Below are positions 12,600-32,194 of a stretch of 35,413 nt of DNA, piece after piece (position 1 is the stretch's first letter; the number at the start of each line of letters is the position of its first letter). Under the pieces are notes generated by a model. The model searched no databases, had not been told where the DNA came from, and was given only the letters and a program-made list of their open reading frames with translations. The DNA comes from an uncultured Bacteroidales bacterium (GTDB lineage: Bacteria > Bacteroidota > Bacteroidia > Bacteroidales > UBA4417): positions 1-35,413 of the forward strand of contig CAIPFN010000239.1 of the NCBI GenBank assembly GCA_903864265.1. The letters run 5' to 3'. Made by a program: the position numbers and the translations under genes.

Positions 12600-12735
12600 T
12601 CCTCCCCCCCCTCCCCTTGTCGCCCCTCGCCTTGTCCCCCCTTCCCCTTGTCTCCCCATCCCCTTGTCTCCCCATCAATCTCATCAATCCCATCAATCCC
12701 ATCAATCTCCTCAATCCCCTCAATCCCCTCAATCC
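12600..12735 (+). repeat. Pyrimidine tract with seven 9-nt repeats ahead of ispD
   Basis: An extremely C/T-biased tract separates sdaA from ispD. The first part has repeats of the type CCCCTTGTCTCCCCAT. From 12673 to 12735 there are exactly seven 9-nt units, CATCAATCY changing to CCTCAATCC, ending 1 nt before the ispD ATG. Because the unit is 9 nt, copy number changes keep the upstream reading frame in phase with ispD. The complementary strand is G-rich and may form unusual structures. Confidence 0.85.
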
Positions 12736-12736
12736 C

Positions 12737-13402
12737 ATGAACAAATTCGCCATCATAGTCGCCGGTGGAACCGGAACCCGCATGCAGGGCGATGTGCCTA
12801 AACAGTTTATGTTGTTGAAAGGCAAGCCCGTCATTTTACATTCGGCTGAAGCTTTTCATGCCTTTGATGCGGCCCTCAGCATCATACTCGTGGTTCATTC
12901 CGCATATGTTGCCTATTGCCGGGAAATGCTGAGGCATTTAAATATCGCCATACCGCTTCGTATCGTGGCGGGAGGCGAAACCCGTTTCGAGTCGGTGCGG
13001 AACGGGCTGGATGGTATTGGCAGTGACGGACTGGTGGCCGTTCATGATGCCGCCCGCCCGGTCATCCACACGGACTTTATAGCTCATTTGTTTGCGGAAG
13101 CCGAAAAGTACGGGTCGGCTGTGCCGGGAATCGCTTTAAACGATACCATCCGCATGCTTGAAGGGGAAGAGTCGAAACAGCTGGATCGCACCTTGCTGCG
13201 TGCCATGCAGACGCCACAGGTTTACAGGGTTTCGGAGTTAAAGGATGCCTATACCCAGGCCTTTCAGCCCCAGTTTACCGACGATGCCTCGGTGATGCAA
13301 TCGGCAGGATTCCCGCTGCATTTAACCGAAGGCCGTTCAGGGAATATCAAGATTACCCATCCCCAGGATATTGCGCTGGCTGAAGTGCTCTTAGGGATTT
13401 AG
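12737..13402 (+). CDS. ispD: 2-C-methyl-D-erythritol 4-phosphate cytidylyltransferase
   Basis: A 221-residue IspD, the CTP-dependent third step of the MEP isoprenoid pathway. The nucleotide-binding N-terminus is MNKFAIIVAGGTGTRMQGDV with PKQF after it (R15 and K22 are the expected catalytic residues). Other family segments are GGETRFESVRNGL, AVHDAARPVI, RAMQTPQVYRV and FTDDASVMQSAG. The ATG at 12737 is chosen because it gives the family start; an in-frame extension to 12617 only translates the 9-nt repeat tract into INP/LNP repeats. The ribosome-binding region is therefore made entirely of the pyrimidine repeat, which is unusual. Confidence 0.96.
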   Translation: MNKFAIIVAGGTGTRMQGDVPKQFMLLKGKPVILHSAEAFHAFDAALSIILVVHSAYVAYCREMLRHLNIAIPLRIVAGGETRFESVRNGLDGIGSDGLVAVHDAARPVIHTDFIAHLFAEAEKYGSAVPGIALNDTIRMLEGEESKQLDRTLLRAMQTPQVYRVSELKDAYTQAFQPQFTDDASVMQSAGFPLHLTEGRSGNIKITHPQDIALAEVLLGI

Positions 13403-15612: not shown

Positions 15613-15686
15613 AATCAGGGTTTTGGTTTCGGTGATCAGGGTTTTAGTATCTGCATTCAGAAGTTATGGAACCCCGGCATTTCCCC

Positions 15687-15749
15687 GGAACCTGGAACCT
15701 GGAACCCGGAACCCGGAACCCGGAACCTGGAACCCGGAACCCGGAACTT
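15687..15749. repeat. GGAACCY heptamer array, nine units
   Basis: Nine contiguous 7-bp units (GGAACCT, GGAACCT, GGAACCC x3, GGAACCT, GGAACCC x2, GGAACTT) occupy the divergent promoter region between the flippase gene and ruvC. Copies vary only at the seventh base except for the last unit. Two copies of the same unit occur at 5-18. Confidence 0.95.
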
Positions 15750-18154: not shown

Positions 18155-18259
18155 ACCCCTCTCCTTTTCAGGAGAGGGGCCGGGGGTGAGGTCTGTTTTT
18201 CGGGAGAAGCGCCATGGCTGAGGTCTGTTTTTCAGCAGAGGAGCCGGCGCTGAAGTCCA
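18155..18259. repeat. Palindrome plus three degenerate 32-bp tandem copies
   Basis: CCCCTCTCCT (18156-18165) and AGGAGAGGGG (18170-18179) form a perfect 10-bp stem with a TTTC loop. Its right arm begins the first of three head-to-tail copies: 18165-18195, 18196-18227 and 18228-18259. Each starts with TTTTC, has a G-rich middle and ends in TGAGGTCTG or TGAAGTCCA. Only the first copy keeps the palindrome. The palindrome resembles a REP-like sequence known to be common in Bacteroidota intergenic DNA (recalled, not checked). It lies just beyond the topA stop and could also act in transcript ending. Confidence 0.75.
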
Positions 18260-23117: not shown

Positions 23118-25589
23118 ATGGACAATAACTTTCCAAATTATAACGAAACCCAGCAGGAGCAGTCAGTCGACATCATTGCCCTGTTTTATAAATTTCTGAG
23201 CTACTGGTACCTGTTCTTCATAACGATAGTGCTGGTCATGCTGATCGCCTTCCTGTTCAACAAGTACACCAAGCCGGTATATAAAGTTAAATCCACTGTT
23301 CTGATCACCGAAGATAAAGGCGGGCTGAATGACGCACAGTCGTTGCTGGGCTTTGGAAATATTACCAACACCCAGAAACTCCAGAACCAGATCGGCATCC
23401 TGAAGTCGCGTTCGCTGGTGTCGCGTACGCTGAAATCCCTGAACTTTAATGTTTCCTGTTTTAAGGAGGATAATTTTATTACCACCGAAGTGTACGATAA
23501 ATCACCGTTTAATGTGATCATCGACACCACCCACCTGCAACCTGCCGGAAGTTTGAAGTTTTATGTAACCATTCTGTCGGATAACGAATACCAGCTTGTT
23601 GCCGACGGGCAGGATGTTACCCTGTATAACTATAACACGTATAAAGATAGTGAAAAGAAAACAGGGCTGGTGAAATATGACCAAAAACACCGTTTCGGCG
23701 AACAGATTACGAGTGCCAATTTTAGCTTCCGTTTGGATAAAAACCTGAAATTCGATCCTAAAACATCCCTGAACCTGCACTATTTCTTTTCGTTTAACTC
23801 ATTGAATTCCATGATCTCGGAATTTTCGGGTTACGAAATCGAACCAATCAATAAAGAATCTTCCATTGTTGAAATCTCCCTAAAAGGCAACAACCCGCAA
23901 AAAGCCGTCGATTTTTTAAACCAGCTCACCCATGAGTATATTCGGCAGGGTCTCGAAAAGAAAAACCAGATCGCCATCAATACCATTATTTTTATCGATG
24001 ATCAGTTGCTGGAAATCAGGGATTCGCTCAATACCAATGAAAATGTGCTGCAGAATTTCCGCACCAGCAACCAGATCATGAACCTGGATGCCCAGTCGCA
24101 GCAGGTTTATACCAATATCACCGAACTCGAAAAAGAAAAAGCGGTACTGCTGGTGAAAGGGAAATATTATAACAATCTGAAGGATTATATCCTTAAAAGC
24201 AAGGATGACCTGAATGGTGTGGTGGTTCCCTCCGCCATGGGAATTGATGATCCAATTATGACCCAGATCCTCACCCAGCTGACCCTGCTGTATGCCGAAC
24301 GCTCCGAAAGGCTGATCACTTCGCAGATCAATAACCCCATAGTGCTGCAGATCGATCAGAAAATTGCCAATACCAAACGCTCTCTGGCCGAAAGTATTAC
24401 CAATATCGTAAAGACTTCGGATATCAGTATCAAGGATATCGAAACACGCATCGAAACCCTCTCCGGGTTTTTCCGCAACCTGCCTGCCACCCAACGGCAG
24501 CTGCTGGGAATCGAACGTAAGTATAAACTGAACGACGCCATTTACACCTACCTGCTTCAGAAACGTTCGGAAGCGGCCATTACCAAAGCCAGCAATACCC
24601 CCGACAACGAGATTCTGGATGTTGCCGACCCCGTGGTGCAGGAACAGGTTTTCCCTAAAACCAGCCTGAATTATACCATTGCCTTTATCCTTGGTCTGAT
24701 CATCCCCCTGCTGTATATCTTTGGAAAAGACTATATGACCGACAAAATGGTAAGTAAAGGTGACATCGAAAAACATACAAACCTGCCGATAATAGGACAT
24801 GTGCTGCACAACAAACACGACAGCCCTATAGTTACCTTTACTTCTCCTAAATCATCCATTGCCGAATCGTTCAGGGCCCTGCGTACCAACCTGCAATACA
24901 TGTTACAGGGAAAAGAAAAATTCACCATCCTCATTACCAGTACCAGTGTGAGCGAGGGTAAATCGTTCTGCTCGGTGAACCTGGCCTGTATTTACGCCCA
25001 GTTCGAACGCAAAACACTACTGATCGGGTATGACTTACGTAAACCTAAACTTTACCAGGATTTCGGACTTAAAAATACCGAGGGGATTACTTCATATCTT
25101 ATCGGTAAAAGTTCACTGGAAGACATCATCCAAAAATCGCATATCCCTAACCTGGATGTTATCACTGCCGGGCCCGTGCCTCCCAATCCGGCTGAACTTA
25201 TCGCCTCGCCTCGTAATATCCAGCTGCTCAACCTGCTGAAAGAAAAATACGATTACATCATCATTGACACCCCTCCGGTTGGTATTGTAACAGATGCATT
25301 CCTGCTTATTCCCCATACTGATGTAAACATACTGCTTGTTCGTCAGCACCTTACGTTGAAGAAAGCATTTGAAATGATCTCAGGCGATTTCGAAAAGCGG
25401 AAAATCCCTAACACTACCGTGCTGGTAAACGATGTGAAACCCGACAAGAGCGGCTACGGATATGGTTACGGATATGGTTATGGATACGGCTATGGATATG
25501 GCCACAAAAGCGGCTACGGCTATTATTCTGACGATGTTAACAAAGAAAAGGAAAAATCCACCTTTAAGAAAATGTTCAGCCGCTCATAA
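23118..25589 (+). CDS. Polysaccharide co-polymerase/BY-tyrosine kinase (Wzc family)
   Basis: An 823-residue inner-membrane protein that controls chain length and export of a capsule or exopolysaccharide. A Wzz domain starts after the first membrane helix (about 30-50), a long coiled-coil periplasmic region with a GNVR-like segment runs to about 510, and a second helix sits at about 515-535. The cytoplasmic BY-kinase (about 590-765) has Walker A SEGKS (G614, K615, S616) and Walker B YIIIDTPPVG. Walker A' reads IGYDLRKP, lacking the usual first Asp of DxD. The tail is a (GY)8 run at 779-794 plus YGYY at 800-803, giving 11 tyrosines for autophosphorylation. Varied Gly and Tyr codons in the run argue for selection at protein level. 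Confidence 0.95.
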   Translation: MDNNFPNYNETQQEQSVDIIALFYKFLSYWYLFFITIVLVMLIAFLFNKYTKPVYKVKSTVLITEDKGGLNDAQSLLGFGNITNTQKLQNQIGILKSRSLVSRTLKSLNFNVSCFKEDNFITTEVYDKSPFNVIIDTTHLQPAGSLKFYVTILSDNEYQLVADGQDVTLYNYNTYKDSEKKTGLVKYDQKHRFGEQITSANFSFRLDKNLKFDPKTSLNLHYFFSFNSLNSMISEFSGYEIEPINKESSIVEISLKGNNPQKAVDFLNQLTHEYIRQGLEKKNQIAINTIIFIDDQLLEIRDSLNTNENVLQNFRTSNQIMNLDAQSQQVYTNITELEKEKAVLLVKGKYYNNLKDYILKSKDDLNGVVVPSAMGIDDPIMTQILTQLTLLYAERSERLITSQINNPIVLQIDQKIANTKRSLAESITNIVKTSDISIKDIETRIETLSGFFRNLPATQRQLLGIERKYKLNDAIYTYLLQKRSEAAITKASNTPDNEILDVADPVVQEQVFPKTSLNYTIAFILGLIIPLLYIFGKDYMTDKMVSKGDIEKHTNLPIIGHVLHNKHDSPIVTFTSPKSSIAESFRALRTNLQYMLQGKEKFTILITSTSVSEGKSFCSVNLACIYAQFERKTLLIGYDLRKPKLYQDFGLKNTEGITSYLIGKSSLEDIIQKSHIPNLDVITAGPVPPNPAELIASPRNIQLLNLLKEKYDYIIIDTPPVGIVTDAFLLIPHTDVNILLVRQHLTLKKAFEMISGDFEKRKIPNTTVLVNDVKPDKSGYGYGYGYGYGYGYGYGHKSGYGYYSDDVNKEKEKSTFKKMFSRS

Positions 25590-29350: not shown

Positions 29351-30454
29351 ATGCTTAGCGACAAATCAGATCAGTTTCCTATGGAAAGTATCTATGAAAA
29401 CCTCCTGTTGATCTATTATTCAGGAACGGGCAACTCCAAAAGAGTGTCGGAATGGATACTACAGGAAGCCGGAAAACGGGGTATGAAGACGCATATAGCT
29501 TCCTTTCACCAGTTCCGACCCGACGACATTGCTGATTTCAAAGGAAAAACACTGATAGGGTTTTTCTCGGCCACGCATGGCTTCAATATGCCTCATTCCA
29601 TGCTTAAGTTTCTGTTCCGATTTAAGCTTCTAAAAGGATCGGATGTATTTATCGGGAATACAAGGGCCGGGATGAAACTCAGCAAACTGTTTCTGCCCGG
29701 GCTAAGCGGCATAGCCATGTATTTCCCGGCTTTAATCATGCTTTTCAAAGGCTACCGCATCAAAGCCATGTACCCGGTTGACCTGCCATCGAACTGGATC
29801 TCCCTGCATCCGGGAATACGCAGCAAAGTGATTGATTCCATGGTTGAGCATTATGAAACCCTTACCCGGAGATATGCTTCCAGGGTGCTCAGCGGCAAAA
29901 GTGTCTTTGCAAAATCTTTCGTGCTGCTGCCTCTCGACCTGCTGGTAGCTCCTATAGCCGTAGGGTATTATCTGGTCGGCCGCTTTATACTGGCCAAAAC
30001 CTTTATCGCCGGCAGCAGCTGTAACAACTGCGGCTTATGCATGGAACAATGTCCTACACAATCCATCATCCTCCTCCGAAACCGTCCGTACTGGAAATTT
30101 ACCTGCGAGAGCTGCATGAAATGCATGAACTATTGCCCGAAACGTGCCATTGAAACGGCACACTCCATGGTATTCCTGCTGCTGTTGGTGCTGATTGCTT
30201 TTGTTAATCCTTACCTTTCGGCCAGGGTAACGGACTGGGTGGCCAGGTGTTTAAATCATTCGGCAGTGGCTTTTGAGACAATCTGCTTTGCCTTCCAATG
30301 GTCGGTAGCCTTAATTATGTTTTATTTGGGTTACAGAGTGCTTCACTACCTGATGCGCTTCCCGAAGATGAATAAAATCATCACCTATACCACGCTTACA
30401 ACATGGAAGTTCTGGAGGAGATACCGGATTCCGGATATGTCGGCACACCCGTAG
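29351..30454 (+). CDS. EFR1-type flavodoxin/ferredoxin membrane protein
   Basis: A 367-residue redox protein. An N-terminal flavodoxin-like domain has the FMN phosphate loop YYSGTGNSKRVSEW (from 22) and FSATHGFNMP. Two [4Fe-4S] motifs follow: C224/227/230/234 (CNNCGLCMEQCP) and C252/255/258/262 (CESCMKCMNYCP). Hydrophobic segments at about 193-212, 273-288 and 312-333 suggest membrane anchoring, unlike the soluble EFR1 proteins of Firmicutes. ATG at 29381 (MESIYENLLLIYYSG) is an equally good start and places the flavodoxin motif nearer the N-terminus. It probably moves electrons between a soluble donor and a membrane acceptor. The stop TAG lies inside the first hairpin of the adjoining repeat array, so the natural C-terminus may have been altered. 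Confidence 0.85.
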   Translation: MLSDKSDQFPMESIYENLLLIYYSGTGNSKRVSEWILQEAGKRGMKTHIASFHQFRPDDIADFKGKTLIGFFSATHGFNMPHSMLKFLFRFKLLKGSDVFIGNTRAGMKLSKLFLPGLSGIAMYFPALIMLFKGYRIKAMYPVDLPSNWISLHPGIRSKVIDSMVEHYETLTRRYASRVLSGKSVFAKSFVLLPLDLLVAPIAVGYYLVGRFILAKTFIAGSSCNNCGLCMEQCPTQSIILLRNRPYWKFTCESCMKCMNYCPKRAIETAHSMVFLLLLVLIAFVNPYLSARVTDWVARCLNHSAVAFETICFAFQWSVALIMFYLGYRVLHYLMRFPKMNKIITYTTLTTWKFWRRYRIPDMSAHP

Positions 30455-31100
30455 GGGTGTCTGCACACCCGGAGGGTGCAAGGCTTTAATGCCCGAAGGG
30501 CGCAGGGTCTTACAATACCCGGAGGGGTGTCTGACACCCGGAGCGTGTCTGCACACCCGCAGGGTGTAAGGCTTTAATGCCCGAAGGGCGCAAGGTCTTG
30601 CAATACCCGGAGGGGTGTCTGACACCCGGAGGGCTAAGGGGTGTCTGCACACCCGCAGGGTGTAAGGCTTTAATGCCCGAAGGGCGCAGGGTCCTGCAAT
30701 ACCCGGAGGGGTGTCTGACACCCGGAGGGCTAAGGGGTGTCTGCACACCCGCAGGGTGTAAAGCTTTAATGCCCGAAGGGCGCAAGGTCCTGCAATACCC
30801 GGAGGGGTGTCTGACACCCGGAGGGCTAAGGGGTGTCTGCACACCCGCAGGGTGTAAGGCTTTAATGCCCAAAGGGCGCAAGGTCTTGCAATACCCGAAG
30901 GGGTGTCTGACACCTGGAGCGTGTCTGCACACCCGTAGGGTGTAAGGCTTTAATGCCCAAAGGGCGCAAGGTCTTGCAATACCCGAAGGGGTGTCTGACA
31001 CATTCGGAGGGGGTGTCTGCACACCTGGAGGGTGTAAGGCTTAAATACACTAAGTGTGCTTCATCTTGCAATACACTAAGGGGTGTCTGACACATTCGAA
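30444..31100. repeat. Array of 88/96-bp palindrome-rich tandem repeats
   Basis: Seven units, anchored on AAGGCTTTAATGCCC-like blocks at 30480, 30568, 30664, 30760, 30856, 30944 and 31036, give periods of 88, 96, 96, 96, 88 and 92 bp. The 8-bp difference is an indel in the GGAGGGCTAAGGGGTG part. Each unit is a chain of palindromes: GCCC-GAA-GGGC; GCAAG-GT-CTTGC; GGGTGTC-T-GACACCC; ACACCC-GCA-GGGTGT. Loop and stem changes preserve pairing (see findings). Long open frames on both strands (up to 200 codons) come from the repeat period and low stop density and are not taken as genes. Function unknown; candidates are a REP-like expansion, a structured RNA, or a protein-binding array. Confidence 0.93.
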
Positions 31101-31241: not shown

Positions 31242-31278
31242 AAACCTGGCAGGTCATGCGAATGAACCTGCCAGGTTT
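31242..31278 (-). terminator. 13-bp hairpin after the tonB gene
   Basis: AAACCTGGCAGGT (31242-31254) and ACCTGCCAGGTTT (31266-31278) form a perfect 13-bp stem around an 11-nt loop, 40 bp past the tonB stop, with TTTTATTTG after it on the minus strand. It probably ends the VIT-VWA/tonB transcript. A decayed arm (AAACCCGCCAGGTCGACTGCC) occurs at about 31115-31135. Confidence 0.6.
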
Positions 31279-31318: not shown

Positions 31319-32116
31319 CTAGCTTTGAAGTTTAAACACAACAGGCATTATAAAAAGTACGCGTACGGCTTTCCCGTTCTGCTTTCCGGGATGCCACTGA
31401 GGCATCATTTTCACGACCCTCGATGCTTCTGCATCGCATGTACCTCCTATGCCTCTCAGAATTTTTACATCCGTTATATTCCCTTTGGAGTCGACCACAA
31501 ACTGAACATAAACGGTTCCCTGTATGCCTGTTTCCGCATCCTGCTGCGGATATACCATGTTTTCGGCCAGGAATTTCTGCCTCAACGCATCTCCCCCCGG
31601 ATAGGATGGCATTTCTTCAACTATGGTAAAAATCTCCTTTTGTGCTTCAGGTATATCCATTACCTCGCCTTTTTTTTCAATAACGGCTTCCACAGGCACA
31701 TCCACCGGAACATTTGCCGTCAACTGGTTCAGATCGTCCTGGCTTGGAAGACCATCTTCCTCGCTTACGGCATCCACAGTTACTTCGGGGGCAACAAATC
31801 TGATTCGGTTATCGATATCGCTTATGGGCGGAAGAGCCGGCGGTGTCACAACGTCATCGCGTGAGTCAGGTTCAGGCATGATAACCGTAGTGCCATCACC
31901 CTCAAAGTGCCTGACAATGGTTCGTAAGTAATATCCTGATACCAGGGGGTATGCCAGCCCGGCCATCAGAATTGCGATAGAAATCAGCAAAGCCCGGGTA
32001 AGATGCTTATTATACATCTTGCGTAATAGGTATGCTCCATATGCTTTATTCCTGTGCTCAAAGATAATTTCATCCATCTGAGCGATGACATCTTCCTGCT
32101 TTTTCATGGTTTTCAT
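31319..32116 (-). CDS. TonB family energy transducer
   Basis: A 265-residue inner-membrane TonB protein that passes proton-motive-force energy from ExbBD to outer-membrane transporters. The start at 32116 gives MKTMKKQEDVIAQMD and then the Bacteroidota TonB N-terminal signature FEHRNKAYGAYLLRK; a 24-residue extension upstream is not supported. A transmembrane helix spans about 42-62, a Pro/Glu/Asp-rich periplasmic linker follows, and the TonB C-terminal domain runs from about 165 (FTIVEEMPSYPGGD to VVFKLQS). That domain is about three-quarters identical by eye to the one in the anti-sigma fusion at 5850. No exbB/exbD is in the window. It follows the VIT-VWA-TonB gene by 78 bp and is probably in its operon. 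Confidence 0.93.
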   Translation of the reverse strand: MKTMKKQEDVIAQMDEIIFEHRNKAYGAYLLRKMYNKHLTRALLISIAILMAGLAYPLVSGYYLRTIVRHFEGDGTTVIMPEPDSRDDVVTPPALPPISDIDNRIRFVAPEVTVDAVSEEDGLPSQDDLNQLTANVPVDVPVEAVIEKKGEVMDIPEAQKEIFTIVEEMPSYPGGDALRQKFLAENMVYPQQDAETGIQGTVYVQFVVDSKGNITDVKILRGIGGTCDAEASRVVKMMPQWHPGKQNGKAVRVLFIMPVVFKLQS

Positions 32117-32194
32117 TTTTAAGTGGTGGATAATTATATGGATTGAATTGTTAAGGCAAGTTTCAGTATACTTCGGATGCCCTGGCACTTGCGT

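Follow-up and report, generated by a model that had tools for sequence, protein, structure and literature searches.

The palindromic array in the 35,413-nt window probably arose by local amplification from a member of a REP-like, genus-specific family that would have been disseminated by a REP-associated tyrosine transposase (RAYT) and reshaped by template switching at each of its sites, a reading to which we assign a probability of roughly 0.78. The window is the whole of contig C239 from a draft genome of an uncultured Bacteroidales bacterium (G000; 3.6 Mb, 392 contigs, 64% complete). In the mechanism that we propose, the RAYT encoded on another contig (C90) would recognise the folded single strand of the hairpin and would have spread the element in the past. 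Established element sites are retained from species to species, most of them near gene 3′ ends; a comparison of two same-genus genomes (G003 and G013) found most of them common to both, with no transposition event seen. Replication over the hairpin would then switch template at each site, copying one arm onto the other, sometimes inverting the core and adding or removing units, and the window site would thus have expanded in G000 to seven long units.

The array and its dispersed family

The array (30437–31093) consists of seven 81-nt units built of short palindromes, with a near-minimal element ahead of them at the 3′ end of the upstream gene (Table 1). The units are near-identical, their starts lie 88, 96, 96, 96, 88 and 92 nt apart, and the spacers between them measure 7–15 nt, so that the tandem organisation, 88/96-bp periods and palindromic make-up given in the original prediction hold.

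Table 1. Features at and around the array (window coordinates)
Feature	Position	Strand	Remark
Flavodoxin/4Fe-4S ferredoxin-like gene, 367 aa	29351..30454	+	Upstream of array; last codons and TAG stop inside first element
Near-minimal element	~30437..30468	+	At gene 3′ end; overlaps unit 1; counterpart of relatives' element copies at same site
Unit 1, 81 nt	30457..30537	+	
Unit 2, 81 nt	30545..30625	+	
Unit 3, 81 nt	30641..30721	+	
Unit 4, 81 nt	30737..30817	+	
Unit 5, 81 nt	30833..30913	+	
Unit 6, 81 nt	30921..31001	+	
Unit 7, 81 nt, diverged	31013..31093	+	
13-nt inverted repeat, terminator-like	31242..31278	.	Between convergent genes; separate, outside repeat family
Gene with TonB C-terminal domain	31319..32188	-	Downstream, convergent

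Orthologs of the upstream gene in G003, G013, G007 and G008 likewise have their last codons and stop supplied by the element: the tails read, for example, VSAHPKGV or NVSAHSKGV, and the TGA after them lies within it. A decayed element lies at this site in G009, and the gene ends without one in G002, G004, G006, G010 and G011. Where relatives carry the element at this gene end they have one or a few copies, as against the seven long units of G000, and the window array was most likely built up by local amplification where related species already have the element.

The array represents a single locus in a dispersed family of the form GTGTCTG-N-ACACCC-loop-GGGTGTCTGACAC. The window unit was matched at 19 places on 7 contigs of G000, and the right end of the element, GTGTCAGACACCYC, occurs 34 times in that genome (reversed control, 0). 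Reading the copies one by one gave a minimal element of 30–32 nt, [arm]GTGTC-TGN-ACACCC-loop-GGGTGT-CT-GACAC[arm′], and longer versions, 58–87 nt in length, in which additional small hairpins are inserted in the loop; the ends GTGTCTG and CTGACAC are conserved and the bases outside them are site-specific. Most copies are intergenic and near gene 3′ ends, at a median of 38 nt by a crude ORF call. A second array, on contig C80 of G000 (L263, 1015–1908), has a 101-bp period, 8.8 copies and the same ends around a different middle, and half-unit duplications distinguish G003 from G013 at other element sites. Of 16 same-genus genomes, 11 have matches to the family model (R1); in a sample of 395 genomes from the phylum, the window's own genome is alone in having matches, and the other 394 have none. 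The full element pattern had no match in viral contigs; a scan of the same contigs with a short pattern returned 77 single matches, which we attribute to chance.

The family thus belongs to a known class of mobile palindromes as an undescribed, genus-specific and REP-like member whose stems retain their pairing in an unusual manner. It is a short extragenic palindrome present in many copies, as canonical REPs are, but it lacks their GT[AG]G tetranucleotide at the 5′ foot of the hairpin and so falls outside the canonical class. In the unit and most long copies, two inverted REP-like ends fold as one hairpin closed by GTGTC/GACAC and ACACCC/GGGTGT, as in REPINs, and in its workings the element resembles a REPIN that has a RAYT of its own.

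Within the array, evidence for selection on the fold did not materialise. The stem GCAAG-GT-CTTGC had been predicted to covary; across the seven units its critical pair is A-T three times, G-C and G-T once each and mismatched twice, so that all four combinations (A-T, G-C, G-T, A-C) occur, indicating no linkage, and three of the other four pairs deviate only by breaking. The covariation term of RNAalifold was close to zero (0.13 kcal/mol, in the unfavourable direction), and with no Rfam family matching the window at its gathering score the suggested structured transcript also lacks support. In the last unit, the predicted replacement of GCCCGAAGGGC by ACACTAAGTGT is real and changes two pairs on both sides; but the same ACACTAAG recurs in the right-hand hairpin of that unit opposite a partner that does not match it, a pattern suggestive of local copying. 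The preferred fold of the 81-nt unit on the + strand is a single long hairpin (−17.5 kcal/mol, z −2.84), with CAAGGTCTTGC paired to sequence upstream of it, and the alternative folds that had been anticipated do exist. GNA triloops, also part of the original prediction, occur in about 60 of the 102 copies by our own count; common as they are, they are not required, as AAC, AAA and T-rich loops are found too.

The window holds further repeats. The 7-mer CCCGGAA occurs nine times in tandem at 15684–15747, with no relation to the hairpin family seen; adjoining low-complexity arrays of CCCCATCCCCTTGTCT and CCCATCAAT (12605–12738) lie near the start of an IspD-like ORF; a 6-bp repeat (25455–25501) encodes a glycine-tyrosine run near the C-terminus of ORF 23118–25589, which is Wzc-like by eye; and 2.9 copies of a 32-bp repeat (18165–18257) sit just beyond the 3′ end of a topoisomerase-like ORF.

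A transposase gene flanked by the element

Contig C90 carries a gene for a 193-aa protein, P0001, with element copies on both sides. By sequence profile and predicted fold, P0001 appears to be a RAYT-type (TnpA-REP-type HUH/Y1) transposase. Its own match to the REP-associated tyrosine transposase model NF047646 (E 1.4e-13, 50.9 bits) lies under the 80-bit cut-off, and its match to the Pfam model is likewise under threshold (16 against 23); all 36 of its aligned relatives match NF047646. The closest solved structure to the family profile is E. coli TnpA-REP (PDB 4ER8; E 1.6e-11), and a structure predicted from 36 sequences (pLDDT 92) superposes on 4ER8 with Z 16.5 and rmsd 2.3 over 151 residues; an earlier prediction built on 5 sequences was of low confidence (pLDDT 39) and did not enter the structure search. 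Residues H54, H56 and Y126 are invariant across five orthologs, leaving the HUH and Tyr motifs intact, and alignment, profile and predicted structure together place these motifs on a Y1 fold, as in RAYT/TnpA-REP proteins.

Four same-genus orthologs of P0001 (54–58% identity) are all flanked by the same hairpin, and element copies thus border the RAYT gene in five species; close orthologs on named contigs come from uncultured Bacteroidales. Matches to model R1 number 24, 32, 21, 34 and, in G011, 2 in the same-genus genomes with a RAYT ortholog, and 0–11 in the 11 genomes without one, the 11 matches being those of G008, which is 72% complete. Copies are therefore most abundant in RAYT-holding genomes (Fisher p ~0.003, calculated by hand with species treated as independent). 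Dispersed copies, the flanked RAYT in five species and this parallel in abundance support one of the options originally put forward, a REP-type element tied to a transposase, and, as judged from sequence, the RAYT would be what mobilised it.

The nearest described group to the C90 protein appears, from its motifs, to be RAYT subclass 2.6 (Bertels group 5), although two motifs differ. The subclass description (PMC6006769) gives flanking structures that are atypical and without GT[AG]G, and the motifs NH[LIV]H, WQ and YIH[QN]NP, an SS extension and a 21-aa insert between alphaC and beta4. Shared with it are a Bacteroidota host, hairpins lacking GT[AG]G that flank the gene and have copies elsewhere in the genome, the tyrosine motif YIHQNP and the SS motif after the core. 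In contrast to it, the HuH motif of the C90 family is DHFH or NHFH, the W motif is LFQ, and the HuH–Tyr spacing is 70 rather than a median of ~82; the 21-aa insert is not evident in a comparison made at the level of motifs. The paper calls the flanking structures only atypical, and in the text read we found no arms, arrays or sequence family resembling those described here. RAYTs at a greater distance, from other phyla or families (Flavobacterium, Polaribacter, Pedobacter and others; L330, L322, L317, L319, L324), have their own unrelated repeats on both sides, an example being CCTACAAGGTTTGAAAAAACCTTGTAGG around the RAYT of Flavobacterium restrictum.

Paired arms and their possible origins

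Outside the conserved ends, the two arms of a copy pair with each other. Among 19 minimal copies, 92.8% of cells in 5-nt arms pair, compared with 82.3% after shuffling (covariation score 0.292 versus 0.098). Over 102 copies, the mean perfect arm-pairing run is 3.37, against 0.72 for shuffled arms and 1.01 for the highest of 2000 shuffles; arm positions 1–5 are paired in 94, 73, 67, 66 and 55% (shuffled 47, 29, 33, 41 and 34), with background reached by position 8. At six orthologous sites, 42 pairwise comparisons had both arms changed and still paired, versus 9.1 after shuffling (0 of 5000 shuffles), bearing in mind that these shuffle controls do not remove relatedness between species. One orthologous site carries, across seven species, arms such as GTTAA/TTAAC, GTAAA/TTTAC, GAAGA/TCTTC, TAAA/TTTA and ACA/TGT, which means that the pairs changed after insertion or that the element re-inserted repeatedly. 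The core itself may also turn: at L238 it is opposite in G007 and G000 within the same GTAAA/TTTAC arms, the clean case among 16 inverted pairs, several of which lie at multi-element sites and were left out; a separate insertion event with the element reversed could give the same appearance.

The arm pairing and core inversion would be best explained by template switching at the hairpin, which we favour because arm homogenisation and spacer inversion are its two signatures (PMC8604942, PMC8794818). Template switching can by itself generate covariation between species, and no selection on a folded product need be invoked. We tentatively suggest, at somewhat less than even odds, that the RAYT-linked hairpin rewrites its own surroundings, with arm-onto-arm copying that lengthens the stem, flips the core and seeds tandem arrays, giving covariation without selection on the fold.

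Paired arms could also reflect target preference, if its insertion points are the centres of palindromes that were already there, such as terminators. The arms are indeed locus-specific, some copies lie at a terminator T-run, for example after a tRNA gene, and some REP dimers are found within palindromes (PMC3733652); yet the arms change at a fixed orthologous site across seven species, and element-free homologues at two sites have, by eye, no obvious matching palindrome, so that we consider this origin rather unlikely. Much the same holds for selection on an RNA hairpin, in which protection of transcript ends or termination would keep the stems paired. The position of copies near gene 3′ ends and the covariation of arms and core would suit such a role, but the absence of an Rfam match in the window does not, and among the copies listed, arms that are T-rich on the left and A-rich on the right turn up repeatedly on either strand, the reverse of what an intrinsic terminator has. 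Moreover, arms vary by site and species, core orientation varies and arrays expand freely, and we regard RNA-level selection, too, as improbable.

Ordinary slippage of a tandem repeat with no link to a transposase could produce the spacing and near-identity of the window units, and the half-unit duplications at other sites. It covers local copy number, but leaves unexplained both the scattered single copies, with their conserved ends, and the copies around RAYT genes in five species, which makes it very improbable as the whole account. Least probable of all is a structural protein repeat or CRISPR-like array: long open frames do cross the array on both strands, but most copies are intergenic and unique spacers of constant length are absent.

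Relation to known mobile palindromes

The proposed amplification of a RAYT-linked hairpin with template switching has partial parallels in described systems. Like Pseudomonas REPINs (PMC3116915), the element folds into one hairpin from conserved, mutually inverted ends and a variable middle between them, shows compensatory changes and occurs in tandem arrays; unlike them, it has no GTAG-type REP core, its minimal unit is only 30–32 nt, and locus-specific paired arms extend beyond its conserved ends. With GTAG and CGTC REPs, including dimers (PMC3733652), it shares an intergenic location near gene 3′ ends, and some of those families also lie within palindromes, whereas here there is no GTAG/CGTC foot tag and the arms differ site by site with no common consensus. 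The evolution of inverted repeats by template switching (PMC8794818, PMC8604942), reported for a different setting, RNA genes and yeast coding DNA, likewise features homogenised arms, compensatory changes of several bases and inverted spacers. Our literature search, which covered a minority of subscription journals, found no paper linking REPs with template switching.

The family provides a sequence, an anatomy and a matched transposase for a Bacteroidota REP family of a type hitherto known chiefly from descriptions of atypical secondary structures. Its dozens of orthologous sites within a single genus also make it a natural system in which compensatory changes due to template switching can be separated from those due to selection, and that separation bears on the interpretation of covariation in general.
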